The position numbers and the translations under genes were made by a program. A stretch of DNA of 64,000 bases, taken from positions 19,915,241 through 19,979,240 of the forward strand of contig NC_049990.1 in NCBI RefSeq assembly GCF_000003815.2. Direction: 5' to 3'. Shown piece after piece: positions 6,320 through 64,000 of this stretch (position 1 is the first letter of the stretch; every line of letters starts with the position of its first letter). This DNA comes from Branchiostoma floridae (taxonomy: Eukaryota > Chordata > Leptocardii > Amphioxiformes > Branchiostomatidae). The notes beneath the pieces are model-generated. The model saw nothing but the letters and a program-made list of their open reading frames with translations. It was not told the DNA's origin and did no database searches.

Positions 6320-6467
6320 CTGTGTGAGACAAAAGCATCATATAATCAATATTTATAAGTCACTTGGTAACCACACTGAAATTCTCTTCATGTACATAAT
6401 TGTGTCTGCATTAACAGAGTGCATAGTGATCATTCATGCACATTTTAGTAGTTAAGTAGTTAGTCAC

Positions 6468-7446: not shown

Positions 7447-7646
7447 GATGTACTGTTGAAAAAATTCCAGTTTATTTTGCGCTTATTAGGAATATGATAT
7501 TTTGCACACAAAAATGCAAATCTTTTGTCATTTTTAATAGCACGTGCTACATTTACGTGATGTAAATCGTTTTTACCGTGCATATTGTTGTCTTAAACGT
7601 CTTTTTTTATTAAGTAAGTAGCAAAAGGTAAATAAATCTCACAAAC

Positions 7647-19490: not shown

Positions 19491-19539
19491 TCACAGACAC
19501 TCCCGCTGCATGTGCTCCGACTGTTCGTGATAGGTGGCT

Positions 19540-21140: not shown

Positions 21141-21653
21141 CATGTTCTGACATGCTATACCTAACTTGTGAATTGTTTGGACAATGTCAGAATGTATGGA
21201 AGCTTCACCAAATCGGGTTTGATAGTTCTGCAGAAGCTCTTCAAAACACACCTTCGAGTTAGGGTAATCACACAGACTATCATATACTTGTGATCTTAGT
21301 TGCAAAGAATTGTCAAATAACTTTAAAGAATCTCCTGGCGACTCGATAATCTTAGCGACAAAGCGCTTCAAAGGTATTGCTGTGTAATAGTATCTCATAA
21401 GCTGTTTTGCATTTGAGATGTAAAACACTTTCCTTAATTTTTCCCCTAGATCTGTTTCTGTCGGCATTGACGATAATGCTGACATATTTTCCACTTGGCC
21501 GTGATTGTTCATGTATGTCCGCAGCCTCAGTTCTGCTGAGATGCTGACCATCACCGTCAGGTGATGCGCGTTCTCTTCGTCAATGACACCATTCTTGTGC
21601 ATCTTTGTAATCGTTTCCCAGATTGTTGTCGGTTGTATTTCGTGAAGCAGGGC

Positions 21654-21656
21654 TCA
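21654..21656 (-). other. Premature UGA codon in copy B
   Basis: TGG to TGA change relative to both paralogues, in the context TGT-TGA-GCC. Frames before and after are the same. No downstream CTAG context typical of programmed stop readthrough is present. Confidence 0.8.
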
Positions 21657-22759
21657 ACATGAAACAACAATGCTTGAAAATCGATAGATTTCTTTCTTAA
21701 CATTGAGCAGACTGTCACTCAGGACTTGTCTTTCAAACGTTTGAGAATTCTCTGTCATTAAGGCATTTGCGAGTAAGGGGGGGATTTTTCTACTGTCTTC
21801 ACGCAGTAGCTTAGTCCATAATGCCATATATCCATCGATCAACTCTTGCTCTCCTGCCATTAAAGAAACATTCCCCAATACACTTGCAAGATGGTAGCCT
21901 TTTTTCAAAAAGGACGTTACATTGACTTCCAGAAGTTTCACCATGTTGCTGGGTGTGCAGATAAGTTCACATGTTTTACCCCTGCCTAACGGAGTCTTGC
22001 ATGCATGTGGCATGGCTCCATCGAACGAAAACCCGCGCGGTGTTACAGAGTCATAGTACCAGTTGTCCATTTGATCGTCTGAATAGAAATCATTAAGAGA
22101 CTTAATCCCCATGGCAGGAAGAATAGTTTCTCCCAGATTGATTACTTTGAGATGCAGGTAGTGGGTTAGGTTGTGGAAGTAGGTGACATTATTTTCTGTT
22201 TCCTTATCTATCAAAATTGCAAACTCCAGGTCAGAGTACGGTGTTACTAGACCTGTGGCTTGCGATCCCAAGCCTATCATGGCGTACTTACAGGGAGGGG
22301 AACCCATTACCTCCATGCATTCATCTATAAGGCCAGTTATAAACATTCTTCGCTGATGCAGTATTGTCTGAAACAATGCCTTGATTGCTTCCACTCTCCT
22401 CTTCTCCACTTCTGTGATATTTGGGTCGTCATCATCAAGGCTGTAAGGATCGGCCTGTTGTTCAATCTCTTCGACTTCTTTTTCTACTTGGTGTCGGTCT
22501 TTATTTAACTTGGTTTTGTGTTTGTCTACGTCATCGATGTCTACCGTTTGTGTGATATCCAGGACGTGCTTAACGAATGATTTGGTTATCAACTGTATTG
22601 TTTGTTTTATGTCACCTTTTTGTTCTCTTTTGGACCTTACCAGTGCTGCGTTACAGAGCGCTGCTGCCTTAGTGAAGTCATCACCGTCTTGTGACTGCGT
22701 TCCTCTCTTCAGGTAGACATCACTTAATTTTAGTAGTGGCTCCACCTCTTTGCTGGTCT

Positions 22760-23284
22760 CTGTATTAAATACAAGTATTATATTAGTGAAAAATAGTACT
22801 TCTCGGCAACCTTACAGAAACCCTTTGTACATCATAGTGACGTCATTGTTATGATACATGGTGATCAGACGAATTGAGGCAAATTCACTTATGCATGCAC
22901 TATTGACATGCAAAACGTGAGCCAAAGTCAATTTGTGACTCCTGCCAACCTTGTGTGATCAGTTTACATACATTTACTATGAATTGATAACCAAGAAGCA
23001 ATTTGCATACAGAAATATGTTTGCATGGTCAACATTGTATTCTACCCGATATCGCGATGACGGTTACCATTTCCTATACGGCTTCTAATTATTGCCTTGT
23101 TAGCACCTTGCTGCCTCCGTTTACCACATATATGGGGCACGATATTCAGGTTATTCTAAGCGGCAACGGTGGTAAAAATGACATACCTGCTACGTACGTG
23201 TCCCCTTGAATAAAAAATGTTGACCGCATGACATGATTTTGGCTCCATTGATGCCCTATTCCAAACCGTGTAGTATTTAGTTAC
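22760..23284 (-). other. Intron between repeat exon and main exon (copy B)
   Basis: Intron flanked by donor G|GTAACT at 23285/23284 and acceptor at 22760. The equivalent introns are about 150 bp in copy A (6320-6467) and 300 bp in copy C (46847-47147), so this one is enlarged. No gene is seen in it. Confidence 0.55.
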
Positions 23285-24312: not shown

Positions 24313-24710
24313 GTAAACAGTTTAAACTTTGTTCCAACACAAGGGAAGACACTCACCATAAATTTTCGGCCGGATACTCCGACCTTCATCAGATGACTGA
24401 TTCGCTGCTCTATTCCGGAAGTCGTCGGATGACGTCTGGTAGCAGCGAATCATAAAAGGCGGGAAGGCGAAACCTGCCACCATCACGGTTCAATGAGGGT
24501 TGATGTGCCCTAATGTAGATAGCTTCCTTGACGCCCCTCACAAACCAATCCTGTTCAGAGTCCAAGATACGAACTTGGTCCAAAGACACAGAGTGGCCCG
24601 GAGATTCAACGTGTATATGTTGAGACACTTCCGAAGATGTTGAACTGCGACGTTTATGTTCCAAGAAACGGGTTCTTAATGATCGTGCCGTTTCCCCGAT
24701 GTACGACTCA
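24313..24710 (-). repeat. Inverted left arm of Penelope-like element
   Basis: Reverse-complement copy of 25192-25588. It encodes on the - strand the same GIY-YIG end (YIGETARSLRTRFLEHKRR...LPDVIRRLPE), with one visible amino-acid difference (GETARS versus GETTRS). It lacks the sequence upstream of the SYIGET motif. Confidence 0.85.
24355..24397 (-). ncRNA. Hammerhead-like ribozyme motif (left arm)
   Basis: Same motif as 25505-25547, on the - strand. CTGATGA core at 24386-24392, then a six-pair stem II and GAAA. It is identical to the right-arm copy. Type I hammerheads with very short stem III are known from Penelope-like elements; activity here is inferred only. Confidence 0.5.
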
Positions 24711-25492
24711 TGTTGGACATAACAATTTATAGAAAACCCACACATACGGACCAGTATTTAAATTTCCATTCTAGTCACCCATTAGAACACAAATTGGGTG
24801 TCATCAGTACCTTGTTCCATAGGGCTGATTCTATCATCACCAACCCTGAAGATAGAAAAAGAGAGAAAGAACACATAACTCAAGCTTTACGTAAGTGTGG
24901 TTACCCCCAGTGGGCAGTGTCCAGAGCGACAGCACCCAAAACTACCAGGACTGGCAATCACAATCGCCCCACTTCCGTGAACAAGGGGCTAGCAGTGTTG
25001 CCATATATTCAAAATTTGTCTGAGGCCTTACGTAGAACCTTCAACTCACACGGTATTAAGTCTTGCTTTAGGCCGACTAGGACACTTAGGCAGCTTTTGG
25101 TGGCGCCTAAGGATAAGACGCCCAAAGAACACAAGTGCGGCGTGGTCTACCACATTCGTTGTACGGGACAGAAACTCAGAGGTCCGTGCACTGAGTCGTA
25201 CATCGGGGAAACGACACGATCATTAAGAACCCGTTTCTTGGAACATAAACGTCGCAGTTCAACATCTTCGGAAGTGTCTCAACATATACACGTTGAATCT
25301 CCGGGCCACTCTGTGTCTTTGGACCAAGTTCGTATCTTGGACTCTGAACAGGATTGGTTTGTGAGGGGCGTCAAGGAAGCTATCTACATTAGGGCACATC
25401 AACCCTCATTGAACCGTGATGGTGGCAGGTTTCGCCTTCCCGCCTTTTATGATTCGCTGCTACCAGACGTCATCCGACGACTTCCGGAATAG
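24711..25492 (+). pseudogene. Penelope-like RT end plus GIY-YIG endonuclease
   Basis: Open frame of about 260 residues. Residues 1-40 match the end of the Penelope RT thumb region (YRKPTHTDQYLNF, HPLEHKLGVISTLFHRA). A linker with basic residues follows (APKDKTPKEHKCGVVYHIRC, containing a C...C pair), then the GIY-YIG nuclease beginning SYIGETTRSLRTRFLEHKRR with the catalytic Arg (R of RTRF) and a downstream Glu-containing helix, ending DVIRRLPE. The ATG used by a simple frame scan is not the original start: the element is 5' truncated and the first codons sit at the inversion junction. Relic of a retrotransposon, not a host gene. Confidence 0.85.
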
Positions 25493-43709: not shown

Positions 43710-46700
43710 TCACAAACACTCCCGCTGCATGTGTTGCGACTGCTCGTGATAGCTGGCGGCCTTTTGGTGATCACCGAGGAGCCTCCAGGCCTTAGCCAAG
43801 TTGTTAAGTGCAATGGCGATAAGAGGATTTGGGGTGTTCTCACCATAGATAGTCCGCATCATCTGTAGTGACTGTTCCCAATAGCTGACGGCCTTTTTGT
43901 GATAACTAAGGTTCCCCCAGGCGCTACCCAAGTTGTTTAGTGACGAGGCGATATCAGGATGTTCAGTGTTCTCACCATAGATAGTCCGCTCCATCTGTAG
44001 TGACTGTTCGAGATAGCTGACGGCTTTTTTGTGATCACCAAGGTTAAGCCAGGCGACACCCAAGTTGTTTAGTGACGAGGCGATATCAGGATGTGCAGTG
44101 TTCTCAGCATAGATAATCAACTTCATCTGTAATGACTGTTCGTGATAGCTGACGGCCTTTTTTATATCACCAAGGTCTATCCAGGCGACAGCCAAGTTGT
44201 TTAGTGACAAGGCGATATCAGGATGTGCAGTGTTCTCACCATGAATAATCCTCTCCATCTGTAGTGACTGTTTGTAATAGCTGACGGCCTTTTTGTATTC
44301 ACCAAGGTCCATCCAGACGTTGCCCAAGTTGCCTAGTGACTTAGCGATATCAGGATGTGCAGTATTCTCACCATAGATAGTCCGGCTCATCTGTAGTGAC
44401 TGTTCGTGATAACTGACGGCCTTCTTGTAATCACCAAGGTCCCTCCAGGCGTTACCCAAGTTGTTTAGTGACGAGGCAATATGAGTATGTGCAGTATTCT
44501 CACCATAGATAGTCTGCATCATCTGTAGTGACTGTTCGTGATAGCTGACGGCTTTTTTGTGATCACCAAGGGACATCAAGGCGTTACCCAAGTTGTTTAG
44601 TGACGAGGCGATATCAGGATGTGCAGTGTTCTCACCATAGATAGTCCGCTCCATCTGTAGTGACTGTTTGTGATAGCTGACGGCCTTTTTGTGATCACCA
44701 AGGTCCTTCCAGGCGCTCCCCAAGTTGTTTAGTGACTTGGCGATATCAGGATGTGCAGTGTTCTCACCATAGATTGTCTGCCTCATCTGTAGTGACTGTT
44801 CGTGATAGCTGACGGACTTTTTGTAATCACCAAGGTTCATCCAGGCGTTACCCAAGTTGTTTAGTGACGAGGCGATATCAGGATGTGCAGTGTTCTCACC
44901 GTAGATAGTCCGCATCATCGGTAGTGACTGTTCGTGATAGTTGACGGCCTTTTTGTAATCCCCAAGGCACATCCAGGCGAGCCCCAAGCTGTTTAGTGAC
45001 GAGGCGATATCATGATGTGCAGTGTTCTCACCATAGATAGTCCGTCTCATCGGTAGTGACTGTTCGTGATAGCTGACGGCCTTTTTGTGATCACCCAGGT
45101 CCATCCAGGCGTTACCCAAGTTGTTTAGTGACAAGGCGATATCAGGATGTGCACTATTGTCACCATAGATAGTCCGCCTCATCTGTAGTGATTGTTCGTA
45201 ATAGCTGACGGCTTTTTTGTCATCCCCCATGTTCTGACATGCTTCACCTAACTTGCGAAGTGTTTGGACAATGTCAGAATGCATGGAAGCTTCACCAAAT
45301 CGGGTTTGATAGTACTGCAGAAATTCTTCCAAACATGCCTTTGAGTTATTGTAATCACACAGACTATCGTATACCTGTGCTTTTAGTTGCAAAGAATTAT
45401 CAAATAGCTTTAAATCATCTCTTGGCGACTTGATAATATTTGAGACAAAGCGCTTTAAAGGTGTTGCTGTGTAATAGTATCTCATGAGCTGTTTTGCATT
45501 CGAGATGTAAAACACTTTCCTTAATGTTTCCCCTAGATCTGTTTTTGTCGGCATGGACGATAATGCTGACATATTTTCCACTTGGCCGTGATTGTTCATG
45601 TATGTCCGCAGCCTCAGTTCTGCTGAGATACTGACCATCACCAACAAGTGATGCGCGTTGTCTTTGTCAATGACACAATTACTGTGCATATTTGCAATGG
45701 TTTCCCAGATTGTCGTCGGTTGTATTTCATAAAGCAGTGCCCAACATGATAGAGCAATGCTCGAAAATCGATAGATTTCTTTCTTAACATTAAGCAGACT
45801 GGCACTCAGGACAGTTGTTTCAAACGTTGTTGAATTCTCTGTTATTATGGCATTTGCGAGTAAGGAGGGGATTTTTCTTCTGTCTTCACGCAGTAGCTTT
45901 GTCCATAATGACATATATCCATCAATCAACTCTTGCTCTCCTGTGATTAAAGAGACATTCCCCAAGACACTTGCAAAATGGTAACCTTTCTTCAAATGGA
46001 ACGTTACATTCTCTTCCATTAGCTTTACCATATTGCTGGGTGTACGGATAAGTTCGCACGTTTTACCCCTACCTAACGGAGTCTTGCATGCATGTGGCAT
46101 GGCTCCATCGAACGAAAACCCGCGCGGTGTTACAGAGTCATAGTACCAGTTGTCTAGTGGATCGTCTGAGTGGAAATCATTAAGAGACTTAATTCCCATG
46201 GCAGGAAGAATAGTTTCTCCCAGATTGATTACTTTGAGATGTAGGAAGTGAGTGAGGTTGCGGAAGTAAGTAACATTATTTTCTGTATCCTTCTGTATCA
46301 AAATGGCGAATTCCAGATCAGAGTACGGTGTTACTAGACCTGTGGCTTGTGAACCCAAGCCCATCATGGCGTACTTACAGGGAGGGGGACCCATTACCTC
46401 AATGCATTCATCTATAAGGCCAGTTATAAACGTTCTTCGCTGATGCAGTATTGTCTGAAACAATGCCTTGATTACTTCCACTCTCCTCTTCTCAACTTCT
46501 GTGATATTTGGGTCGTCATCATCAAGGCTGTAAGGATCGGCCTGTTGTTCAATCTCTTCGATCTCTTTTGCTACGTCATGTCTGTCATCCTTCAACATCG
46601 TTTTGTGTTTGTCTACATCATCCATACATACCGCTTGTGTGATACCCAGGACGCGCTTAACGAATGATTGGGTTATGGACTGGATTGTTTGTTTTATGTC

Positions 46701-46846
46701 ATCTTGGTCTTCTGTTTTGGATCTTACCAGTGCTGCGTTACAGAGCGCTGCTGCCTTGGTGAAATCATCACCGTCTTTTGACTGCATTCCTCTCTTCAGG
46801 TAGACATCACTTAACTTAAGAAGTGGCTCCACCTCTTTGCTTGACT
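43710..46846 (-). CDS. NTase-TPR protein, main exon (copy C)
   Basis: Third paralogue, uninterrupted. Acceptor CAG before AGTCAAGC at 46846/46847. NTase-like motif GLGSQATG...[14 protein letters not shown], then the helical linker with [18 protein letters not shown] (Trp retained, unlike copy B), and 12 TPR units ending MQRECL. Joined with the exon at 47148-48138 it predicts about 1375 residues. The linker and NTase are well conserved between copies while TPR number varies (20, 13, 12), as in repeat-domain receptors, though the role is unknown. Confidence 0.85.
43740..45220 (-). repeat. 132-bp TPR-coding tandem array, 12 units (copy C)
   Basis: Same period as the other two arrays. The first unit ([11 protein letters not shown]) and the last two are shared in order with copy B, while internal units differ, which points to gain and loss inside the array after block duplication. 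Confidence 0.8.
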
Positions 46847-47147
46847 CTGTGTGGAAAACAAACATCGCATCACTGATTATCGATAATACTGCTTCTTTGT
46901 ACTCGCACAGAAATTGTCTTCTTGTACATCATTGTGGTGTTATCGGTAGAATGCATAATGATCAGACGAGTTGCCGCAAATTCAATTTTGTGGTTAATGC
47001 ATTGCGGATAATGGAAACCAGGCTTTTCCATCAGTTACGGTGGTAGAGATGATATCTCTCCCCATTGGTACTTTTAAAATAACTGCATTACACAATTTGG
47101 CTACAACGATGACATATTGTCAACCGTGGTATTAAGTACTTAGTCAC

Positions 47148-48158
47148 CTTTCCCATGAACAGACTTTAGCGCAGCTGCAAAGTTCTGTTCTGCCGTGTCC
47201 AGGTCCCCTGTCTGCAGGGCCCTGCAGCCCTCCTGCAGCTGCTCTGCTGTGTTTAGATCCCCTATCTGTAGCTCTCCTGGCACTGTTCTGCCGTGTCCAG
47301 GTTGCCTGTAAGCAGGGCCCTGCAGCCCTCCTGCAGCATTTCCCTCTTGTCCATGTCCTCTGTCTGCAAGACCATTCAAACCTGCTTTGTGGTGTCCAAT
47401 TTTCTTCTCTTTAGGGCGCTGAAGCCTTCTGCCATGTCCAGCTCCGCTCTGTGCACAGCCCCGCAGGCCTTTTGCGGCAATTCTGCTGCCTCCATGCCCC
47501 CTGTCTGCAGAGCCCTGCAGCCCTAGTGTAGCTCTTCTTCCGTGTCCACACCCCCTGTCTGCAGGGACCCGCAGCCTTCCTGTAGCCTTTCTATCGTGTC
47601 CAGATCTCCTGAATGTAGGGTCCTGCAGTTTTCTTACAGCTGTTCTGCCTTGTCTAGGTCCCCTGACTGCTGAGCCATGCAGCCTTCTTGCAGCTGTTCT
47701 GCCTTGTCTATGTCTCCTGTCTGAATTACCCTGCAGACTTCTTGCAGCTGTTCTGCTGTGTCCAGGTCTCCTGTCTGCATGGCCCTGTAGCCTTCCTGCA
47801 GCTGTTCTGACATGTCTAGGTCCCGTGTCTGCAGGGCTCTGTAGCCTTCCTGTAGCTATTCTGTCATGTCTAGGTCCCCTGTCTGCAGGGCCCTGTAGGC
47901 TTTCTATAGCTGATGTGCTGTATCCAGGTCTCCTGACTGCAGAGCCCCGCAGCCCTCCTGCAGCTGTTCTTTTGTGTCTAGGTCCCCTGTCTGCAGGGCC
48001 CTGCAGCCTTCCTTCACCCTTTTTGTTGTATTTACGTCCCTTGTATTTGGGGTTTTGCAGCCGTCCTGCAGCTGTTTTGCCATGTCCAAGTCTCCTGTGT
48101 TCAGGGCCCTGCAGCCCTTCTGTAAGTGTTCTTTGCATCTGCTGTTGGAGGATGACAT
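47148..48158 (-). CDS. NTase-TPR protein, N-terminal repeat exon (copy C)
   Basis: Repeat exon ending [12 protein letters not shown] with donor G|GTGACT at 47148. Two starts compete. The ATG at 48158 is in the TPR frame (MSSSNSRCKEHLQKGCRALN) but that frame stops at 47904. An ATG at 48138 (MQRTLTEGLQ) opens the Arg/Gly frame, stays open for about 275 codons ([17 protein letters not shown]-type repeats) and returns to the TPR frame near 47270 through a 10-nt-short unit (GELQIGDLNTAEQ). Only the second start gives an uninterrupted protein into the main exon. The same design is seen in copy A. Confidence 0.55.
47150..48130 (-). repeat. 54-bp minisatellite (half-TPR units), copy C
   Basis: About 17 diverged units. 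Some in-frame TPR-frame stops are at positions shared with copy A (for example the TAA before GAAAACTGC), so much of the array predates the duplication. Confidence 0.8.
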
Positions 48159-48355
48159 GATGTACAGTTGAAAAACTCCAGCTTATTTGTGTTTATTAGG
48201 AATATGATATTTTTTTATAAATTGTGTATCAAATTCTTTTGCCATTATCAATAGCGCATGATACATTTACATTTAAATAGCTTTTACATTGCATATTGTT
48301 GCCTTAAATGTCTTCTTTTATTAAATAAGTAGCAAAAAGTAAAGATCTCACAAAC

Positions 48356-52480: not shown

Positions 52481-54522
52481 TGTAAATACATGCGATACTA
52501 ACATTAACAATCACAAAATAATTTTTTTAATGAAAATTAAATATTCATTGAACCTTGGAAGATTAGCCCCTAAGGGCTAAAAGGTTTCTTAATAAAAAAA
52601 GAATCATTATGAAAGAAGAACTCTTACGCTGATTAGCCAGGCAATGTTTAATCAATGTTCATCATATGCATCTTTACTGTACAATATTGAGCATGCCGGG
52701 GCTAAAGCTTACATTAATGTACAGTCAAAATACTGCCCAGCACTTTGCAGAGAACAAATAATAATTCTTTTGTTGTCATTTCTCTATGTACAAATTCAGT
52801 AGTAGTCATAGCTTGGAAATATCAGCTTACTATATATACATTTTCAGAGCATCACAAAGATTGTTGATCCAATGTAGAAATGCACATTGCAATGTCTGAA
52901 TAGACTTTCTAACCAAAAGTCTTTGAGTTAGTTCAACATCTATATGTCAAGCTTAAATAAAGAAACCCTGAATAGAGTAATATTTATATCTACTGTTGTA
53001 TACAGAGGTTTTTTTTTTCAAAATGAAAGTGCCACCAACTCTAGACTCGCAATATTATGAATCAGCGCTGTTGCTACGTAAATGGCTGCCATTGCAAAAT
53101 TATTTTAACCTTTAAGTTATTCTATGTCCACTAAATTAAAGACATGTGATTCTAAATTTTCAACTTGATTGTTCTGCTTGCTGCACTTGAATTTGGATTG
53201 TCCTCACTCTTTTCTTATTGGGTGGGTGTCAAACTTTTGATTCTCCGAATGGAGCAAATTGATGTAAAATTGACATAATAATTATACATTGTATATTGTT
53301 TTATCAATTCAGTGGCAACACTGCAAATGAAGACAAAGTAAGTTTTGGGGAGGCCATCTTGTTTTCACAAATGAGGTCACATAATTTATCCCTGTGTAGC
53401 ACAGCAGTGTAGCCGCAAGGATAAATTGACAAAAATTTTGTGAAATTTTCTACAGCCCTATTTTGCTCAGTCCCAAGATGACCGCTTTACAGTTAAGGTT
53501 AAGATCTAGAGTCTTCATATCACAGAAAACAATTTCCACAGAAATGGACAATAATTTGAATCCCAGGCAGCAGTTGAGAAGTTTGCAATCAACAAAACCA
53601 AACCTTTGAAGCATTTTGACTGAAACAAGGACCTTGTACCCAACTGTACAATTGAACAGGATTTAAAAAAAAAAAAAACCTGTTTGCTTTCTCCCCTCCC
53701 GCTTCCAGAATTTTCTCTCACTATACAGTGTATTGACCACTATTCATTGACAAACTTTGCTTTTAACTCTGAATAATGATATGTACTTTCAAATTGTTAG
53801 ATGACAATTTGTGAACAGAGACACCAATTCACATAGTTCTGGCTAACTTCTAGCTCACGTTTCTAAACCGGGGCCTGGCCAGGCTGTTGGTTGGAACGAA
53901 AAATAAAACCATATGCCAAGGAAAACTATACACAAATTACATGACTAATTTCTTTTGTGTTTCGTTGAACTTAAAATCATTAATATTTAACCCTTTTTAT
54001 TCTCACAAACTGCCTAGTCAGGCATCGGTTTGGAAATATGTATCAAGTAAAGACGGCTATCATTATGAAGAGCAGCACTAACAAGAGAGTTGCACACGTA
54101 GCACCTTTCTTTTATTTCATTACCAGGCTGAAAAATAATCACATATGCAAGACCTGATTAGAGTTTGTACATACTTGTCATTAAATCTCTCTTCTTATAT
54201 CAACTGAAATTACACAAGGGACACAACATTCTAAATTAAGACAACAAAGAAGAATCATAAGTTAGGACAAAAGACTGAAGAAATAATTATAGTGGGCTCT
54301 TTCAAAAGTACACAGACATTCCTAACAATGGTTGGATTTACAAGAAGTTAATTGTTCAAGCAAATGAAAGATCAGATACCGGCGGTGTGATATTTAGACA
54401 GAAGATGCTATTTCTCTCTTTAGTTTGCCAATTTTGAGATAGAATATAACTATTGAAGCCATGTCTAAACATAAGTGGCGGTGGATAAAATGAATAAAGG
54501 ATGATACTTTGTCATGTTCATA
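52481..54522. other. AT-rich intergenic or 3' UTR stretch
   Basis: No gene seen on either strand. It lies downstream of DNAJC3 (- strand), so its right part may be 3' UTR; an AATAAA signal on the - strand can be read at about 54108-54113, but I cannot tell whether it is used. Confidence 0.35.
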
Positions 54523-54863
54523 CAGGGCTCGAAATACTGGTGTGCATTCACCTAAAATTGGATCTGTGCACCTAATTTTTGACTATGGGTGCACTGGTGC
54601 ACTTAGCTATGTGTCAGTTTACGTGCTGTAACAGTTGTGCACTATAAAACATACCATTTTTTTCACATTGAACTGTAAAAAAATGCCAAAGCCTGTTTCT
54701 TGAATCAATTATTTAAAGCTAGCCATAGAATTTCAGATTTCAGCTCTGGAACTGACAAAACTTATAATTAGATTGTGCACCGCAATTTTTTTCGCTGCAT
54801 CTGAATGTCTAAGTTATGTGCAACAGTGCACCAGTGCACCTAATCCACAAATTTCGAGCCCTG
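54523..54863. mobile_element. hAT-like MITE
   Basis: 341 bp bounded by CAGGGCTCGAAAT and its complement ATTTCGAGCCCTG; CAGGG ends fit the hAT superfamily. The interior contains GGTGCACTGGTGCAC-like repeats and no coding frame. It sits just beyond the distal DNAJC3 stop codon, within the probable 3' UTR. Confidence 0.65.
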
Positions 54864-54912
54864 ACATTGATATTACGAGGATGACGTTGTACAAATTTTG
54901 CAGGTAGCTTGT

Positions 54913-55055
54913 TCAGTTGAAGTGGAACTTGAAGTTGAAGCCCTGTCCTCCGAAGGGGTTAAAGTTGAAGCCATGGTTTCCCCAGGGGTTGTGCCCGCCC
55001 CCCTGCTGTTCAGGGTCCAGGGGGTCCTCCCCATTGTCAAACTTCTCTCGCTTCT
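54913..55055 (-). CDS. DNAJC3: DNAJC3, distal alternative terminal exon
   Basis: Terminal exon of the ER-lumenal co-chaperone DNAJC3/p58IPK. Acceptor CACAG before AGAAGCG; phase matches the J-domain exon. It encodes EKREKFDNGEDPLDPEQQGG and the Gly/Phe/Asn tail closing GFNFKFHFN, as in vertebrate DNAJC3 (FDDGEDPLD...FRFKFHFN). 47 codons to the TGA at 54913. A second, homologous terminal exon lies upstream in the transcript at 56898-57052, so this one would be used when that exon is skipped. No KDEL is expected or present. Confidence 0.85.
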
Positions 55056-55073
55056 CTGTGGGAAAACAAGTTC

Positions 55074-55176
55074 CTACACATTTAGTACAATTATCCACGT
55101 TGGGTCCTTTTCTTGTTTAAAACCATGTGCATATAAAATTGTCAGTGAAAGAAGAAGATTGAAAACTGCTATTTGA
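55074..55176. repeat. Direct repeat in DNAJC3 intron (first copy)
   Basis: About 100 bp that recurs at 55390-55492 (TACACATTTAGTACAATTAT, GGGTCCTTTTCTT, GTCAGTGAAAGAAGAAGAT). It lies directly upstream of the distal terminal exon in the transcript. Confidence 0.75.
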
Positions 55177-55389
55177 AATTTTATCCGAATGATTCTTCCA
55201 ATTAGTTGTGTTTGTATGGCAAATATCAGAAAAACTTAAAAAGTAAATACCCCGATCTGTAACACAGGCTATAAAGTACAAAATGTACATGAAAAAGGTC
55301 AGTACGGCAACCACTGTGACACTTTAACAGCTAGCAATGGCAGGTAATACATGTAGTAATATGTTTCACATTGGTCATTTTTCAGAACA

Positions 55390-55492
55390 ATTTGATACAC
55401 ATTTAGTACAATTATCCCGGTCGGGTCCTTTTCTTATCTAAAACCATGTACATATGAGTTGTCAGTGAAAGAAGAAGATAGCAAATAGCTAT
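55390..55492. repeat. Direct repeat in DNAJC3 intron (second copy)
   Basis: Second copy of the 55074-55176 segment, about 316 bp away in the same orientation, with scattered substitutions. Confidence 0.75.
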
Positions 55493-55830
55493 TTGTCGAT
55501 AAATGAATATTGACAATGTGTTATTTTGTGCGGCAACATAGTACATGTACAAGGGGCAATCAAAAACTTCGTATAGTACGAAAGTTAATTAAGTGGGTAC
55601 CTCACTGGGCTGTGATAGTTGGTGACTATTTGAAAAAAAAAAAAACACTTTTCAAATGGTTGCCAAATTCACTTATCAGCTTGCAGCATTAGATGGTAAA
55701 GTTTTGTCATAACATTTTTCAAAAATGCATCAGACAAAGTGGCACAAACAGTTCAAATCTCATTTGGATGAATCTTACATGTAATCATTGTATGTTGGTT
55801 TTAGTTCAGTGGAAACACTGCGATTTCCAA

Positions 55831-56468
55831 TTAAGGTATTTCGGTTGGCTAAATTGGCATTTTGACTTTCCATAGTTCTCTCATTAATGAATTACAAAAG
55901 AATTAAGCCGTAACGAATATTGATAGATGGGCATGACAAAATTCTAAATCTGATTTTTTGGGGGCCAAATTGATGACGTCATCAGGTTTTATTACCCCTA
56001 ATATTATTTTTTCTATGACAAAATACAGCACCTTGAAACTATGTTTTTCATGTGCATAATGATGAAGGCTACAAACTCAATGTTGCGCAAACTGATATCT
56101 ACTAGCGATCTGTAGTTATTAAGAATTGATTTTTTTTAATTAGATGAAAACAAACATTTTCTAATTACTACCGATCATTAGTAGATATCAATTTGCGCAA
56201 CCGTGAGTTTGTAGCTTCCATCATTATGTAACGAAAAACGAAGTTTCATTACAGTGGTATGTACCAAAGTGCTGTACTTTGTCATAGAAAAAAATAACAT
56301 TAGAGGCAATAAAAATGATGACGTCATCAATTTGGCCCCCCAAAATCAGATTTAGAATTCTTTCATGGCCATCTATCAACATTCGTTACGGCTCCATTCT
56401 TTCTTAATTCATTGATAAGAAAACAGTGGAAGGTGAAAATGCCAATTTAGCCAACCGAAATACCTTAA
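55831..56468. mobile_element. 638-bp foldback element with TTAA ends
   Basis: Near-palindromic along its whole length: starts TTAAGGTATTTCGGTTGGCT and ends with its complement AGCCAACCGAAATACCTTAA. Internal matched words include TTTGGGGGGCCAAATTGATG and TTGATAGATGG. TTAA at both ends suits a piggyBac- or Sola-type target duplication. No coding frame. It lies in the intron between the two alternative DNAJC3 terminal exons. Confidence 0.75.
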
Positions 56469-56490
56469 GTTGTCTAATATACAATTTGTA

Positions 56491-56689
56491 TACTGTAAAT
56501 GGAGAAATGTTCGCGGTGGATTAATGTTCGCGGTTTTTCGCGGCGGCCGCTTCACCACGAATTTAAAACCACCGCGAACATTATTTTTCCATAACAGTAA
56601 GAGGCTACAGTGCATGATGCTACCGCGAAAAGTTCATTTTCCCGCTACCGCAAAATTAAATCCCCGCGAACTTACATGCATTTACAGTA
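56491..56689. mobile_element. 199-bp MITE with TA flanks
   Basis: Begins TACTGTAAATG and ends CATTTACAGTA, with a second inner inverted pair around TTCGCGGT and CCGCGAAC. Flanking TA dinucleotides suggest a Tc1/mariner-type target. It ends about 210 bp from the proximal DNAJC3 terminal exon. Confidence 0.7.
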
Positions 56690-56897
56690 TAACTGAGGAT
56701 ATGACAGTCCCGGTGCGGCCATTTTGCTGGTCAAGGTCACATATTTTAGCCTAGAGCTACATTGTACGGCAGTTTGACAACTAGGGAAAATTAGTGAAAA
56801 ATTTCCGAAGTTACCGCAATATTTTGTCACCAAAAGGCACGGCCCAGTGAAATAATTGTGCTTAAAGGTAGAGATTGAGGTATTGGTTAATCCACCT

Positions 56898-57052
56898 CTA
56901 GTTGAAGTGGAACTTGAATCCATTGAATCCGTTTCCTCCCCCCGGCCCAAACGGGTTGAAGTGGAACCCCTGATGACCCCAGGGGTTCTGCCTGCGTTGC
57001 TGCTCCTCTGGGTCCAGGGGGTCCTCACCATTGTCAAACTTTTGCCGTTTTT
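56898..57052 (-). CDS. DNAJC3: DNAJC3, proximal alternative terminal exon
   Basis: Homologous to 54913-55055 but distinct: acceptor CCCCAG before AAAAACGG, then EKRQKFDNGEDPLDPEEQQR and a Gly/Asn-rich tail ending NGFKFHFN, 51 codons with a TAG at 56898. Phase is the same as the distal exon. Both encode a complete family C-terminus, so the gene has two mutually alternative 3' ends. Differences are concentrated in the G/F-rich tail, which follows the J domain and could influence client or HSPA5 interaction; that effect is inference. Confidence 0.8.
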
Positions 57053-57646
57053 CTGGGGGGTGGGGGTGAGGGGGTGGTGATAGGGTTTAGAAGACAGTGC
57101 ATTTGGGATAAGAGTTGAAAGAAGTAGTGCATGTAGTCAAGTCTTACTCTGGCTTAAACTTTAAAGTTTTAGAAATGAAATTTGCCTCCTGTGTTAATAG
57201 CTGTCATAAACTATTTTTTTCAATGTTAGCACCAAATTGACTCCAAACATCCACCTCTATATCCAAAATTACTAATAAGTCAATCTGTTTCATTCTCGTC
57301 AATATTACTATTGGGCCAGGCGTATGTATTTTTCTAATATAGCTAAGTTAAAAACACAACAACAAAATCTTTATATGTTACGCACAGATTTTTGTTCCTA
57401 TTTTCAAAAAGAGCGGAGGTCTGTAAAATGTTTTACCTCTGAAAATGTATGCAGTTTTCTATATAACAATACAAAGCTTAATAAATCAAATCTCCCAAGA
57501 AAGCAACAAAGTTAGACTTGACCACATTGTTAAGAGATAGGTAAGAAATAAACTGTTTTAACACAAAAAAGTTGAAACTAAAAGTAAACCCTATACATAT
57601 ATTTTCCTTTTTAATCACAACCTATTAAAATTTAAATTGAACTTAC

Positions 57647-57795
57647 CAGGATCTGCTAATACTTCTCTTGCAGCTGCTATCTCTATAAACTTTTTCTCTG
57701 CTATCTTTTTCTCCTCTTCTGATCTAAAGTTATCCGGATGCCACTCAGCTGCCAGCTTCCTGTAGGCCTTTTCTATTTCTCTCTTTCTTGCATTT
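57647..57795 (-). CDS. DNAJC3: DNAJC3, J-domain exon
   Basis: 149-nt exon between CACAG and CCTG|GTAAGT. It encodes most of the J domain: NARKREIEKAYRKLAAEWHP with the HPD motif that stimulates HSP70/BiP ATPase, then DNFRSEEEKKIAEKKFIEIA and AAREVLADP. It starts in phase 2 from the preceding exon (ILGVKR) and ends in phase 1, which fits either terminal exon. Confidence 0.9.
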
Positions 57796-58603
57796 CTGTG
57801 GAAAAAAAGGGGATTTCTTAAATCTTACCAAGGATAGAAATTGTCATAATTATGGAGTTCACGATATACACAGTGTTCCTGACAGATACCAAAATTTAAC
57901 CCTTAAACTGCCAGAGTTTCAGCACTATAAAATGCTATAAGTGCCAGGGTTGGCTGCTGACCTCCAAAAAGAACCCCCCGAACAAGGCCGAAGTCCCTAA
58001 CTTCCCGGGTTCGTGCGCTACGCACGCGCAAAGTTGCTACTTCAGGGGAATACGCTATCACGGATATGTCCAGGTGCGGCATACAGGACATGTATATGTG
58101 TGCGGGATATATCACTCAAAATCTAAAATGCATGCAGCCATTCGGTGTCATTGGTCAAATTGATAATTGCCATGCTATCATTGGTTGAACTGCTAATTGT
58201 GATGGACAGCCAGGATTGTTCTATATTTCCCCATAACTAAAACTATTATTGATCAAGAATCCTGTCTATAGTAAGGATAATAATCTTTATTACAAGAATA
58301 AATTATTCATACCCGAGGGCTAATTGCAGACAAAGTAAAGTAGTGCTATACATAATTGTATTCTTTACAGAGAAGAAAAATGAGAACTATAGATAAATCA
58401 AAAGAGAAATAATGTCTAATCTAAATCTATTTCTACTTAAGCTATTTGATAGGTTTGATTTCTTTTCCGTGTGCAGTGGGAGATGAATTGTCCAACATTT
58501 TCATATATATAAAGTGATCATATGTTTTATCAGTCCCAAGTGGTTTTCTTGAGCAATTTTGACTGGAACTGTTTAGCCACATTATTTGTTTCTTCAAACT
58601 CAC
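57796..58603 (-). other. DNAJC3 intron
   Basis: No gene inside. The open frame at 57903-58115 lies in what looks like an old interspersed repeat; no motif. Confidence 0.5.
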
Positions 58604-58736
58604 CTTTTGACCCCCAGTATTTTGTAATAATCCCTCTTTTGTGATTGTTTGAGGAGCCTCTTGGCCTTTTCCAAGCCTTCTGTGACATGTCTGAGGTTGT
58701 TGTCGATGTCGTGTGCTTTCTGGTAATCTTCAACAG
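58604..58736 (-). CDS. DNAJC3: DNAJC3, last-TPR to J-domain exon
   Basis: 133-nt exon. It encodes AVEDYQKAHDIDNN, the end of the last TPR, then VTEGLEKAKRLLKQSQKRDY and YKILGVK, the linker and first J-domain helix. The sequence REGLEKAQRLLKQSQKRDYY is diagnostic for DNAJC3 among J proteins. Acceptor CCCAG, donor AAAG|GTGAGT; phases join neighbours exactly. Confidence 0.9.
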
Positions 58737-59767
58737 CTGGGAAAAAACAAAGATAGCAAAAACTGAGGATGCATTCTCAACAGCGCCATCTAGTGACAAG
58801 AAATGGCATTACAGCCCTGTGACAGGTAGAAGACAGAGTATTGAAATGTTTGTAGGTAAATATGAATAGTCTATTAGAATTTAACTAGACAAATATCCAA
58901 CAATTAACAACGTAATTACCTTTAAAATATCATGCATATTGATATTAAATTTTACAGTTGTGCACACCAAAAACTATATTTGGTACAACATTTCTTGGAA
59001 CATTAAATACAGATAAAGAACATACAGTCATTCTTAGTGAAAAAGGACTACTACTAACTATGACATATTTTGGAACAAATATAAAATCTTTTTAAAACAA
59101 TGCAGTCAAGCAGATCATCCAGTCAATTTCACTTTCAATAAACATTAGACGAACATATTAGCCATATAAACATGAACATTTTGTTTGATTGTTGATTTAA
59201 CAACCATATATCCCAAAAAGAAAAGGTTAGGAAGTAGTATACATAATAATTGTCATTGTCATTGTCAATAAATTACACTGTTATAAAAAGAACTGTGTTA
59301 CTCAGTTTATCATTCAAGAGTGCCAAATTGAGAAACAGTATTATATAGAATACAACACAGTGTATTCTGCATCACCAGAGGTACATGTAGTGACCATTGG
59401 GAGGCCTGGGATCGAGGGTGATGTGGAATACACCATGTCATATCTTAATATTTATGTAATGATCATTAACCTCCCCTCCCAGAAAAACACAAAATTTCAA
59501 TTGGAAATATACCTGAAGTTGAAAATTTGGTGTCCTCAAATAAAAATCATATCTGCATCAATTTTAGTTAAATGTCTGAATAGGGTATCTGAATTTTTGA
59601 CAGCAGCGCATATGAAGCATTGTTCCAAATGATTCAATGGAAGCCAGTGCAATACAACTGCAAAACCCATGCGACACCCAAAATTTCGAACTGTCAAGAT
59701 TAAGAACACCTGCATAGGATATATGATGGACCAGGTAAGATATAATCTACTGGTAGCTCTAGTGTAC
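58737..59767 (-). other. DNAJC3 intron
   Basis: About 1 kb, AT-rich, no gene seen. Confidence 0.5.
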
Positions 59768-59888
59768 CTCTTTCAAACTCCTCTGCCAATATGTACGTCT
59801 CTGCTCGGTCCACCAGTGCTTCAATGTTGTTCTCATCCATTTCCAACACTTCTGCACAGTTCTTAATGGCATGTGGGACATCTTTCAA
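59768..59888 (-). CDS. DNAJC3: DNAJC3, TPR exon
   Basis: 121-nt exon beginning in phase 0: LKDVPHAIKNCAEVLEMDEN then NIEALVDRAETYILAEEFER. It corresponds to the vertebrate EAIRVCSEVLQMEPDNVNALKDRAEAYL region. Its phase-0 start accepts either of the two duplicated exons upstream (60764-60869 or 61484-61589). Donor AGAG|GTACAC is weaker than usual. Confidence 0.88.
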
Positions 59889-60763
59889 CTGCATAGACAA
59901 TGTAAAGGGCACTTGAATGGGCCTTCCTCACATAGAATAATTATCAACTATCATGCATTTCAACAAAAATATAGAGCTAAACATTGGTAATGAAAATATC
60001 TAGATCTTGTGTACAGTACAGTGAATGGCATATTGTACAAAATTAGCTGACAACTCAGTCCGCTTCCAAGTAATCAAGCTCCAATGTAGATATAAAATCA
60101 AAATTTAGTATGCAAGATCATGCTTATATATGTTAGTGTCTTGCAAAATATTACAGGTACACATATTAGAATTTAGTTACAAGTGGAAGCTAATTAAAAC
60201 GTGATCTATATAGGGAAAAGACTACACAACAAGTTTATACTACTGGTAGCTTATAAGCCAATGCAAAGAGAAGAAAGGTCAAAGAAAACAAATTGTGCAT
60301 ACACCGTTGATGTACATGTACATGTATGCTTAGCCTAGTCTCCAGTAAAATTTTCCAGTTGCCTAATTCTATTACTATATCACTGCCACATGTATATTTT
60401 ATTCTCTCAGTTAGACAAAATTATTGAAACAGAACTGCAAGTAAGACACATTGTAGATCACAGTTTCATGAGTTGTTATGATACTTGGAAAGGTAGAACG
60501 AATAAGAAATGTTAATCATGAGACAAACATGCAACATGCCAATCATCACAAGACTAAGTTTTGATTGGTTAAGACAGCAGGCACAGTTAGAATCGATTGG
60601 TCAGATCATCATGCATTATGCTGCTGTAATTGTACTCCATTCAAAAATGATTCAATCAGGATGCAAAGATTTCATTGGTTAAGACAGACAACACAGTTGT
60701 AAGTTGTTGATTGGTCAGATCATCATGCATCATCATGCTGTTGAGTGTTACCACCTAGCTTAC
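59889..60763 (-). other. DNAJC3 intron with short tandem duplication
   Basis: At 60555-60745 a segment of about 110 bp is tandemly repeated (ATTGGTTAAGACAG, GATTGGTCAGATCATCATGC). No gene. Confidence 0.5.
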
Positions 60764-60869
60764 CTCTCTGTAGCTTTTGCATATTTTGGACTTGGACCAT
60801 AGCACATACGCCCATATTTCAGGCTCCAACCTAAGCGCAGCCTCTAGTTTTACTATTGCTTCTTCATAC
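60764..60869 (-). CDS. DNAJC3: DNAJC3, duplicated TPR exon (3' copy)
   Basis: 106-nt exon: acceptor GTAG, then completes an Arg codon and reads YEEAIVKLEAALRLEPEIWA and YVLWSKSKICKSYRE, donor GAG|GTAAGC. It matches the vertebrate YTDAxSKYESVMKTEPSIAEYTVRSKERICHCF region. Its twin at 61484-61589 has identical length and phase, with 22 of 35 residues identical. Because 106 is not a multiple of three, an mRNA with both or neither exon would be out of frame, so the pair should be spliced mutually exclusively. Confidence 0.85.
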
Positions 60870-61483
60870 CTACAAAGGGGGAAGGAAGAAAGCAAGCCAT
60901 GCATGTTAATGAGTGACTTAATACAAGCCTTGTGCATTCTACAGGTACTTTGTCACTACATGTAACTATGTACAAGTGTCTCTCACAGTCTTCATTGAAC
61001 AACAAAGCATATTGTTTTGTTTTTTCAGTGATAGTTTGTCTTTATTAAGTCTTTAATGACAGTCAAACCATGTACAAGTGACCACCTCTCCATAAAGACC
61101 ACCTGGCCAATGTGCCCATTTCTTGATGGTCTCTAAGGTAACTTTTCCCATCAGTAAATTAGTGTGACCGAAGGCACCAATGCTGCATGAATATAGCATG
61201 AAAACTTTAAAGTTTTTAAAAAGCATCAGTGCAGCACGAATCAGCCCTTTTGCAAGGGATTGACACAAACATTAGAATCCTTTCTATAATGACCACCTGT
61301 CCATATAGACCAGATTCTATCGGTTCCCTGAGTGGTCTTTATGAGCATTTTTCACTGTACTGTATTCTTAAATCATACAAAGACAAATCAAATCTAGAGA
61401 AAATGCGTTGTTGCCTTTTTTAAACTGTGAGAGATACACTTGTACTTTGTGTTTTTTGTATACATTTCTTTTTTTCTTCTCAC
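60870..61483 (-). other. Intron between duplicated DNAJC3 exons
   Basis: 614 bp separating the two candidate mutually exclusive exons. About 61055-61360 resembles a dispersed repeat with GACCACCTCTCCATAAAGACC near one end and TGACCACCTGTCCATATAGA near the other. Splicing regulatory pairings cannot be judged by eye. Confidence 0.45.
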
Positions 61484-61589
61484 CTTAGCATAACATCTAC
61501 AAATCTTGGACCTGGCTTTTAAGACAAAGGCCCATATCTGAGACTCGGCTTCTAAAGCGGCCTCAAGTTTGACTATCGCTTCTTGATAT
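61484..61589 (-). CDS. DNAJC3: DNAJC3, duplicated TPR exon (5' copy)
   Basis: 106-nt twin of 60764-60869: acceptor ACAG, completes Arg, then YQEAIVKLEAALEAESQIWA and FVLKARSKICRCYAK, donor AAG|GTGAGA. Its C-terminal RSKICRCYAK is closer to the vertebrate RSKERICHCFSK than the 3' copy is. Differences cluster in the helix-turn (EAESQ versus RLEPE) and in the second helix (KARSKICRC versus WSKSKICKS), which line the concave TPR face, so client binding might differ. Confidence 0.85.
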
Positions 61590-62086
61590 CTGTAAGATAA
61601 AGGTTTTTGTTACGCACACTCTTTGTATTAAATCTTATACCGATTCTACCATGATGTCTGCTTTGGAAAAGTTTTAAAAAATGCTAACATTGTAAATTAC
61701 AAATCCATAATATATTTTGTAACGTCTTGAAATTATGCTCACATTCACAATGATATTCAACACTGAATTTTATACCTAAAAATCAATCTCTTATAGAGAA
61801 TTGTAGTGTTTGGGAAAATCGATAATCTTTTGAGGGGGGGGGCACAATAACTACCTAGTTTATAATCAACGTTGACATTTTATCAAAAAGAGTCAAAAGT
61901 AATCATATCTGGTAATACACATTTTGTATAACAACACAACTTCTTTACTAATATGCAAACAATATCTTAAATCAATACTTGAAGCAAATTAAAAGATAAT
62001 ACAGAATGCTAAAGGTAAGTATATGAACTAAATACAACAATGATACATTCATAATATTTTTTTGTTCGGAATTTCTGTTTCCTTAC
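61590..62086 (-). other. DNAJC3 intron
   Basis: About 500 bp, AT-rich, with a poly-G run near 61835. No gene. Confidence 0.5.
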
Positions 62087-62206
62087 CTCCCCTCGTTGAT
62101 GAAGTTCTGTGCAGAGTTGTACAGCTTGTTCAGCTTCTTGGCATGTTTGTAGTGGGGGAAGCAGCTCTTGTGGTCTGGGTCAAGTTTAAGGCACTCTCGG
62201 ACCTCT
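62087..62206 (-). CDS. DNAJC3: DNAJC3, TPR exon
   Basis: 120-nt exon reading EVRECLKLDPDHKSCFPHYK then HAKKLNKLYNSAQNFINEG and two bases of an Arg codon. Almost the same as the vertebrate VRECLKLDQDHKRCFAHYKQVKKLNKL, which makes the orthology firm. It ends in phase 2 so that either duplicated exon completes Arg (AG|G or AG|A). A SINE is inserted 28 nt upstream of its acceptor. Confidence 0.92.
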
Positions 62207-62234
62207 CTGTGACAATGACAATGTGTCAATGACA

Positions 62235-62519
62235 TAAGTTAAAGTTAAACCCTTCCCGCACCTGATGGCACATAGGGCGGCGCCCATCTCTGTTTCCTTA
62301 GCCCTGGGCCACACAACGCAATCACAACAGCAGGGGGCTAGTCCACTGGTAGTGGTGTGTGTTCAACTTCCATACTGTTTCCCGAATGCTGAGTGCTAAG
62401 CAGAGAAAGAAGAATGTACCATTTTTAAAGTCTTTGGTACGACTTAGCCTGGGATCGAACTCACGACCTACCGAATGCAAGGCAAACACTCTATCCACTA
62501 GGCCATTGCGCCGGTTACA
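62235..62519 (-). mobile_element. tRNA-derived SINE
   Basis: On the - strand the head is tRNA-like with a box A (TGGCCTAGTGGATAGAGTG) and box B (GGTCGTGAGTTCGATCCC), followed by a tRNA-unrelated body and a TTTAACTTTAAC tail. It is flanked by a perfect 11-bp target duplication, TGTCAATGACA, at 62224-62234 and 62520-62530. It is not a functional tRNA gene: there is no matching acceptor stem or 3' terminator, and the body continues for more than 200 bp. Confidence 0.85.
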
Positions 62520-62530
62520 TGTCAATGACA

Positions 62531-63197
62531 GATGAAGGCAATACACTGTACAGTATGAAACTGCAGTACACACTTATGCCACATCTTCAGCAAGGACACG
62601 GGAAGAACCACTCCCAATCCAAGTCTGTCAAGAATGAATGAAGAAGGAAACTTCCCATGAAGATGTGGCAGTGTATGGTTTACTTGAGGTTGTCCATAAT
62701 TATATTGCCCAAAGACAAGCCATATTATGGATCTGTAGAATATGCTATTATTGTTTCAGTTTCATAAAAAATTTCACACCCAGAAGTGATATAAGGCATT
62801 ATTGTGAAACTGTTTACTGGTGTAGCATAACAACATTTCTGCAGATATTAACGTTAGATATCATTTCTACAGATATTTCAAGTATCAGTACTAACAATGA
62901 TATATAATACTTTGTTTGCTTGTTTGTATTGCATTGTTTATGACTTAATGACAAACATTTCTAGATATCGCTAATGTCTTTCCTCTGTGACTCCCCACCC
63001 CCACAAAATTGGCTTATTCTGTTATTTTGTACTTACTTATCATAAATCAGTAAGGGTAATGATCCAAAACTTTGGGTTCAGGGAATGTTGTTCGATGACA
63101 GTTTGTGAGCAAAAGCCCCTATGATGCAAACAGCTTTTGGGGTCTACTGGGTAAGTTCATGTTTTGAAAAAGAGACTTTGTGTGCAGTGCCACTTAC
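62531..63197 (-). other. DNAJC3 intron (upstream part)
   Basis: Remainder of the intron between 62207 and 63197. The + strand frame at 62638-62907 shows no motif and I do not call it. Confidence 0.5.
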
Positions 63198-63379
63198 GTC
63201 AGTGAATCCTCCAGCTCCCCTACATCATAGTACATCTTGCTGACTCTGAAGTAGGCCTCCGTGTTGTCTGGCCTCATCTTGGTGGTGGGTTTGATGTCAT
63301 TGATGGCCTTGAAGTGTTCTCCGATCTCCATGTAGCACTGTGCACGCTTTTCTCTCAACGACGGATCCCAGACGCATTT
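63198..63379 (-). CDS. DNAJC3: DNAJC3, TPR exon (most 5' in window)
   Basis: 182-nt exon in phase 0: KCVWDPSLREKRAQCYMEIG, then EHFKAINDIKPTTKM and PDNTEAYFRVSKMYYDVGEL, ending EDSLT with two bases over (AC|GTAAGT). It matches the vertebrate VCVWDAELRELRAECFIKEG and NDNTEAFYKISTLYY regions. Signal peptide and first TPRs must lie beyond the right edge, so the gene is partial here. Confidence 0.92.
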
Positions 63380-63600
63380 CTGGGGGAAATACAGGAATGT
63401 TCAAATCAATCCTTATTAGCCTGATTAAATCTCGCTTATAGCAGCCCGCCCAACATCTGCCGGCCCCCTAAGGGAGGGGCCAGTTACAGCCCTGGACAGC
63501 ACAGTTTGTGTTACACAGACTAAATCCTTAATAAATGTTTTGCTTCCAAAGTTCTCACCAGGACTTTTCACAGCATAGGAGGCATCTTAGTGTGGCAAGT

Positions 63601-63877
63601 TTTAAAGGCATACTACGGAATATTTCAACAAAACAAAAAGTAGAAACAGGAGGATCTAACCAAGGAGGTTGAAAACCTCCTTGGTCTAACTAGGGAGGTT
63701 AATGGGTTACAGCGTGCCTAGAGCAGAATGTTTTGTAGGCTAATCCTTTACGTTGCAAACGTGAAATAATAACACAAAAGTGTCAAAAAGTGACAAAAAG
63801 TGGTAGTAAATCTGATATTTCTTAATTCTAGAATATTTCAAATTTGAGCGCAAAAAACTTCGTAGTATGCCTTTAAA
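63601..63877. mobile_element. 277-bp MITE
   Basis: Bounded by TTTAAAGGCATACTACG and its exact complement CGTAGTATGCCTTTAAA. It contains an internal short hairpin around CCAAGGAGGTTGAAAACCTC. No coding frame. It lies in a DNAJC3 intron. Confidence 0.75.
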
Positions 63878-64000
63878 GGTTTAAGTATATAGTTAATTTG
63901 TAAGGAGGCTTAGATATGGGGGTATCCTCCCCTAAAAATGTCAAAATTGATAACCCTCATACACACTATTTCCTGCATTTTGGGGGCCAAATTCTATGAA

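Follow-up and report, generated by a model that had tools for sequence, protein, structure and literature searches.

A tandem pair of candidate mutually exclusive exons in the DNAJC3 gene of the lancelet Branchiostoma floridae

Does the lancelet gene for p58IPK, a central co-chaperone of the ER stress response that is generally regarded as a single protein, hold two interchangeable versions of one of its exons? The question is raised by two similar exons, A and B, that lie in tandem in a 64,000-nucleotide stretch of the Branchiostoma floridae genome (the window; C12 19915241-19979240; Table 1). We conclude that A and B probably descend from a tandem duplication and function as mutually exclusive exons, a reading built on the DNA sequence, and we infer that the two isoforms are expressed, exclusive and functional.

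Table 1. Exons and candidate regulatory elements of the lancelet DNAJC3 gene, in gene order (positions within the window)
Feature	Position	Strand	Remarks
Common exon, further upstream (KCVWDPSL...)	63198..63379	-	Matched to human DNAJC3
Common upstream exon (EVRECLKLD...INEG), phase 2 end	62087..62206	-	Matched to human DNAJC3
Exon A of tandem pair	61484..61589	-	106 nt, YQEAIVKLEAALEAESQIWAFVLKARSKICRCYAK; AG/GT borders; phase 2 to 0; Cys equivalent to human Cys313 present
Candidate 14-bp perfect stem, 5' arm	61351..61364	-	A-B intron; would loop out exon B
TGCATG site	60898..60903	-	Between exon B's candidate branch point and polypyrimidine tract
Exon B of tandem pair	60764..60869	-	106 nt, YEEAIVKLEAALRLEPEIWAYVLWSKSKICKSYRE; AG/GT borders; phase 2 to 0; same Cys as A present
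Three TGCATG sites	60724-60729, 60610-60615, 60528-60533	-	35-231 nt downstream of exon B; two inside tandem repeat
Candidate 14-bp perfect stem, 3' arm	60012..60025	-	Intron after B
Common downstream exon (LKDVPHAIKNC...)	59768..59888	-	Cys equivalent to human Cys329; own donor GTACAC weak
Common exon, TPR domain end and J domain start (KRDYYKILGVK)	58604..58736	-	Matched to human DNAJC3
Common J-domain exon with HPD motif, phase 1 end	57647..57795	-	PF00226 on spliced product
Alternative last exon C1 (EKRQKFDNGEDPLDPEEQQ...FKFHFN, TAG)	56898..57052	-	Genome copy check
Alternative last exon C2 (EKREKFDNGEDPLDPEQQ...FKFHFN, TGA)	54913..55055	-	Genome copy check

The gene is DNAJC3, as the preliminary description had it. 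The best PDB match is human 2y4t (E 1.5e-77; 220 residues, with exon A), and the spliced product contains Pfam DnaJ (PF00226, E 1.1e-21) plus TPRs, with a TPR_2 score of 68.0 bits for the product with B and C2 versus 62.4 bits for that with A and C1. As in DNAJC3/p58IPK, the TPR array precedes a J domain containing HPD and a tail ending in FKFHFN, an ending that we take to be a mark of DNAJC3. Residues identical to human number, exon by exon in gene order, 30/60 (first residue not covered), 27/39, 11/36 (A), 13/36 (B), 16/40, and 28/43. N-terminal stretches lie upstream of the window, at window-equivalent positions 66956-66873, 66244-66104, and 65546-65433 (human matches at E 8e-9, 6e-20, and 2e-6, respectively); one further stretch, between the 65546-65433 group and 63379, was not located in the search with human letters.

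A search of the genome (513,431,437 bases in 431 contigs) with the isoform carrying B and C2 returned 27 matches at E <= 0.001. Nine correspond to the nine exons that the gene has within the window. The remaining 18 reach no more than 54% identity to the query and include longer open frames on contigs C2 and C4 (30-38% identical), which are presumably DNAJC7-like. We thus found one DNAJC3 locus among the best-scoring candidates; the search scores best candidates only, so its copy counts are at least those found. The J exon, searched against viral contigs, gave 41 loci encoding J-domain relatives.

The window holds other features. On the minus strand, three long open stretches rich in TPRs (2127-6359, 19491-22811, and 43710-46928) appear related by eye; 19491-22811 consists of two adjoining stop-to-stop frames, and 43710-46928 carries Pfam TPRs, a nephrocystin-3 TPR, and a putative nucleotidyltransferase (DUF294). 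Two of these stretches are closely preceded on that strand by open frames of degenerate repeats, at 6460-7482 and at 47140-48192, the latter with no Pfam match. In the intron before 62206, at about 62250-62510 on the minus strand, there is by eye a SINE-like stretch with a tRNA-like head; ARAGORN found no tRNA gene in 54000-64000. At 24410-25492, two open frames, one on each strand, encode an identical peptide (SYIGET..SLRTRFLEHKRRSSTSSEVSQHIHVESPGH) and look like mobile-element ends in inverted orientation.

The preliminary description of A and B as two tandem exons of equal length, splice phase, and position in the protein was borne out to the base, as were the neighboring junctions that it gave (62087 upstream and 59888 downstream). 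The two exons encode the same residue at 22 of 35 full codons and match at 68 of 106 bases, and each retrieves the other from the window by tblastn (E 5e-12 for A as the query, E 4e-12 for B). No third copy was found in the same 64-kb search, where the next best matches have E values of 0.77 and 1.6. Adjacent homologous exons of one gene with the same phase and compatible length are one mark of a mutually exclusive exon cluster, and the anatomy of A and B supports their assignment to such a cluster, of the tandem exon duplication type.

The reading frame points the same way. Each pre-mRNA would have the donor at 62087 joined to A or B, and that exon then joined to 59888; only one exon at a time keeps the frame, just as the preliminary description had argued. 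With C1 as the last exon, joint inclusion of A and B ends in ...CYAKV and a stop (nt 411, 506 nt before the last junction), and skipping of both ends in ...NEGS and a stop (nt 303, 402 nt before the last junction). Both outcomes are unproductive, with the stop at or just after a junction, as in clusters of this kind. Because these stops are far upstream of later junctions, nonsense-mediated decay (NMD) of the wrong combinations is to be expected from established knowledge, and the frame would in this way enforce productive output. According to excerpts of PMC5740500, 377 (60%) of 629 human clusters of mutually exclusive exons contain exons whose length is not a multiple of three, and reads joining two such exons occur in 83 (22%) of these 377 clusters. 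Frame alone is thus no guarantee of exclusive splicing.

How old is the pair, and have both copies been kept as coding sequence? By Nei-Gojobori counts, A and B differ by 18.3 synonymous differences at 21.7 sites (pS 0.846, saturated) and by 18.7 nonsynonymous differences at 83.3 sites (pN 0.224, dN 0.27). The differences fall at the three codon positions as 12/7/18. When the 37 differences were placed randomly, 19% of 20,000 simulations were free of stops and none was limited to 13 residue changes or fewer, a measure of constraint taken between two copies only, to which a recently abandoned copy would look alike. We conclude from the saturation of synonymous sites at a dN of 0.27 that the duplication is old and that the protein sequence has been kept. 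The flanks (300 nt) cannot be aligned: the best local score is 18 upstream (shuffle mean, 19.2) and 20 downstream (19.7), values reached by 81 and 44 of 100 shuffles, respectively. Lancelet genomes are very polymorphic, and two haplotypes of one exon might have been assembled in tandem. We consider this artefact ruled out, as exons with 64% nucleotide identity cannot be alleles when their synonymous sites are saturated and their flanks defy alignment, and the flanking exons were found once.

Comparison with human helps to place the duplication in time. Identity to human over the full codons is 10/35 for A and 12/35 for B, and the BLOSUM62 sums are 68 and 64, values that do not distinguish an ancestral copy. 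At 14 of 35 sites (counted by hand from the residue table), A and B have a residue in common that differs from the human one. For this reason the tandem duplication that would have given rise to A and B is most simply placed after the divergence from vertebrates; gene conversion could produce a similar pattern.

The splice sites bear on whether both exons are used. Donor scores, calculated with a matrix taken from general knowledge, are good for both (6.72 for A and 6.31 for B). The acceptor tract of A is weak, with pyrimidines at 10 of 17 positions versus 16 of 17 for B, so A could be a minor isoform; the acceptor of the constitutive exon 62206-62087 also has 10/17, scored with the border two bases off. 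The weak tract of A is what might be expected if one of the exons were a decaying duplicate, never or hardly ever spliced in. We regard this as highly improbable, given that the divergence is old and of the coding type, that GT-AG is intact at both ends of both copies, and that neither contains a stop. A related alternative is that the protein is made with just one of the exons, A or B, while the other serves mainly as a poison exon, its joint inclusion lowering DNAJC3 output through NMD. The unequal acceptors and the immediate stop after double inclusion, far ahead of the last junction, agree with this idea, but a poison exon needs no coding constraint, and this pair has kept open frames and a structural cysteine over saturated synonymous change. 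We therefore judge a poison exon improbable and continue to read A and B as alternative coding exons.

If A and B are mutually exclusive, how might one or the other be chosen? The A-B intron is 614 nt long, which rules out steric exclusivity (a donor-to-branch point distance below about 50 nt), and GT-AG sites at both exons rule out a U2/U12 mix as the device. Both devices are optional in human clusters, where short donor-branch point spacing accounts for 9% and a U2/U12 mix for 0.79% (PMC5740500, in excerpt). Given the intron length and the ordinary splice sites, the choice must come from trans factors or RNA structure. There was no convincing selector/docking structure among three intron pairs, with one pair exceeding its shuffles: a stem of 14 nt around B is reached by 1 of 200 shuffles for its intron pair and by 3 of 200 over all three pairs. 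In the other two pairs the longest complementary stretch is ordinary (reached by 178 and 197 of 200 shuffles), and whole-intron duplex energies are uninformative, being reached by 10, 23, and 2 of 40 shuffles.

Binding motifs were scanned in 27 motif-intron combinations (nine motifs, chosen from general knowledge, in three introns), and two combinations stood out at 13 of 1,000 shuffles each: TGCATG, which we take to be an RBFOX-type site, after B, and the ESRP-type motif GGTGGT in the A-B intron, where the sites overlap repeated stretches by eye. The whole intron after B has four TGCATG sites versus a shuffle mean of 0.83, two of the four in copies of one tandem repeat. The single site in the intron just upstream of B is not significant (0.24 expected; reached by 219 of 1,000 shuffles). 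Over the entire window TGCATG is somewhat enriched (61 versus 45 expected; 1 of 100 shuffles), and five sites are reached by 12 of 1,249 overlapping minus-strand windows of equal length, a count that may include the region itself. As a mechanism, the stem around B and the TGCATG sites are weak leads.

What would the exchange of A for B change in the protein? Human numbering follows from the 2y4t alignment, in which query position 103 falls on position 275 of the 450-residue chain, and is obtained by adding 11 to the chain index; the construct comprises residues 35-461 behind a 23-residue tag (PMC3143134, in excerpt, as for the structural details below). The 35 codons of A and B correspond to human residues 284-318, with codon 30 exactly at Cys313, which is paired with Cys329 in the human structure (PMC3143134). 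The Cys313 equivalent occurs in both exons and the Cys329 equivalent in the next exon, so both isoforms keep the pair, and on this ground the swap is apparently harmless to the fold. The preliminary description placed the swap in a TPR segment of the client-binding half of the protein. The TPR segment stands; the client-binding half is not supported, since the exon lies in subdomain III (TPR7-9, helices 13-19) and the putative patch for unfolded proteins in subdomain I (residues 48-114; PMC3143134). From the order of the helices, the exon would comprise helix 2 of TPR7 and helix 1 of TPR8; P52rIPK has been proposed to bind TPR7 (PMC3143134).

Eleven of the 13 residue differences between A and B fall at 296-300, 307-309, and 314-318, and the remaining two are at 285 and 304. 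Five are strong changes of charge or bulk (E/R296, A/L297, K/W307, A/R317, and K/E318), and A carries a net charge of +2, B one of 0. The swap would alter a helix pair in TPR subdomain III of p58IPK with the fold apparently intact, and what it tunes would be a surface for binding or how rigid subdomain III is, not the capture of clients. The 13 residues form a natural set of substitutions that apparently spares the fold and so points at a role of that surface.

A second position of the same gene, absent from the preliminary description, is also duplicated: C1 and C2 both encode the end of the J domain and the C-terminal tail. They have the same phase and are identical at 36 of 46 aligned residues (four C1 residues in gaps left out), and the C2 peptide has two genome matches at E <= 0.001 among the best-scoring candidates, C2 itself and C1. 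Divergence is dS 1.19 and dN 0.115, with as few residue changes in 1 of 20,000 random placements; flank scores (300 nt) are reached by 55 of 100 shuffles upstream and 17 of 100 downstream. The human tail is predicted to be unstructured from about residue 455 (PMC3143134, in excerpt), and C1 and C2 replace the tail corresponding to this region. Each has its own stop. An AATAAA occurs 797 nt past the C2 stop (54116); between C1 and C2, AATAAA/ATTAAA occurs only at 55993 and 56140, both within a palindromic repeat. This MITE-like element (55831-56468) has 138-nt arms that are 86% complementary and a nested hairpin inside. Just upstream of C2, nearly reaching its acceptor, is a tandem duplication (55065-55175 and 55386-55495; 70 plus 37 nt, 87-89% alike).

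A single block duplication giving both pairs is ruled out by the order A B ... C1 C2, in which unduplicated exons separate the pairs, and by the different divergence. As A and B are saturated at synonymous sites with the higher dN and C1 and C2 are not, the pairs probably arose in separate events. All four combinations of A or B with C1 or C2 are open (4/4; 321 or 317 residues counted from the first exon in the window), and the last exons would independently swap the disordered tail, for a maximum of four products. That a single gene is duplicated at two positions, with every combination open, might suggest that the choices are coupled, for example A with C1 and B with C2, marking two processing programs. 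We think this unlikely, as no link is visible in the DNA and the pairs differ in divergence. More speculative than the exclusive pair itself, and only tentatively put forward, is a combinatorial switchboard, in which the TPR helix pair of A or B and the tail of C1 or C2 would give four p58IPK co-chaperones. Tissue or stress would select among them by way of RBFOX- or ESRP-type factors and the stem that would loop out exon B, and splicing would accomplish what separate co-chaperone genes might do in other animals.

We know of no duplicated exon in vertebrate DNAJC3. In its architecture of TPRs and a J domain, in the cysteines of both disulfide pairs, and in the HPD motif the lancelet gene resembles the vertebrate one (excerpts of PMC3143134; PDB 2y4t and 3ieg); it differs in that the last exon and the one encoding residues 284-318 are each present twice. 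In tilapia, DnaJC3a consists of 12 exons measuring 75-182 bp (PMC8533496, in excerpt), which fits a single vertebrate exon without proving it. Mutually exclusive splicing has been demonstrated in lancelets for Fgfr, whose exons IIIb, IIIc, and IIIx are likewise tandem duplicates within one gene and are used exclusively with tissue differences (excerpts of PMC5703972). That case differs from DNAJC3 in gene and in fold. IIIb and IIIc were dated before the split of the chordate subphyla (PMC5703972, in excerpt), whereas A and B of DNAJC3 share residues that human lacks; an amphioxus Fgfr isoform with IIIx plus another exon has been reported (PMC5703972), whereas joint use would be unreadable for A and B. 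The frame-restricted human clusters resemble the lancelet pair in length not divisible by three, in a frame broken by joint inclusion, and in an exon within a folded domain (PMC5740500, in excerpt). Competing structures that arise through exon duplication are the subject of PMC6071210, and a domain-figure legend in PMC4649386 names B. floridae. The main texts of PMC9741552, PMC5740500, PMC5703972, and PMC8379844 do not mention DNAJC3, and the A/B pair is not reported in titles or abstract openings among the matches listed in the literature. It may already sit unremarked in an existing lancelet gene model.

Two constrained, interchangeable TPR exons would imply that the lancelet has two selectable versions of p58IPK subdomain III, outside the putative client patch, and the C1/C2 position adds a possible switch of the tail.
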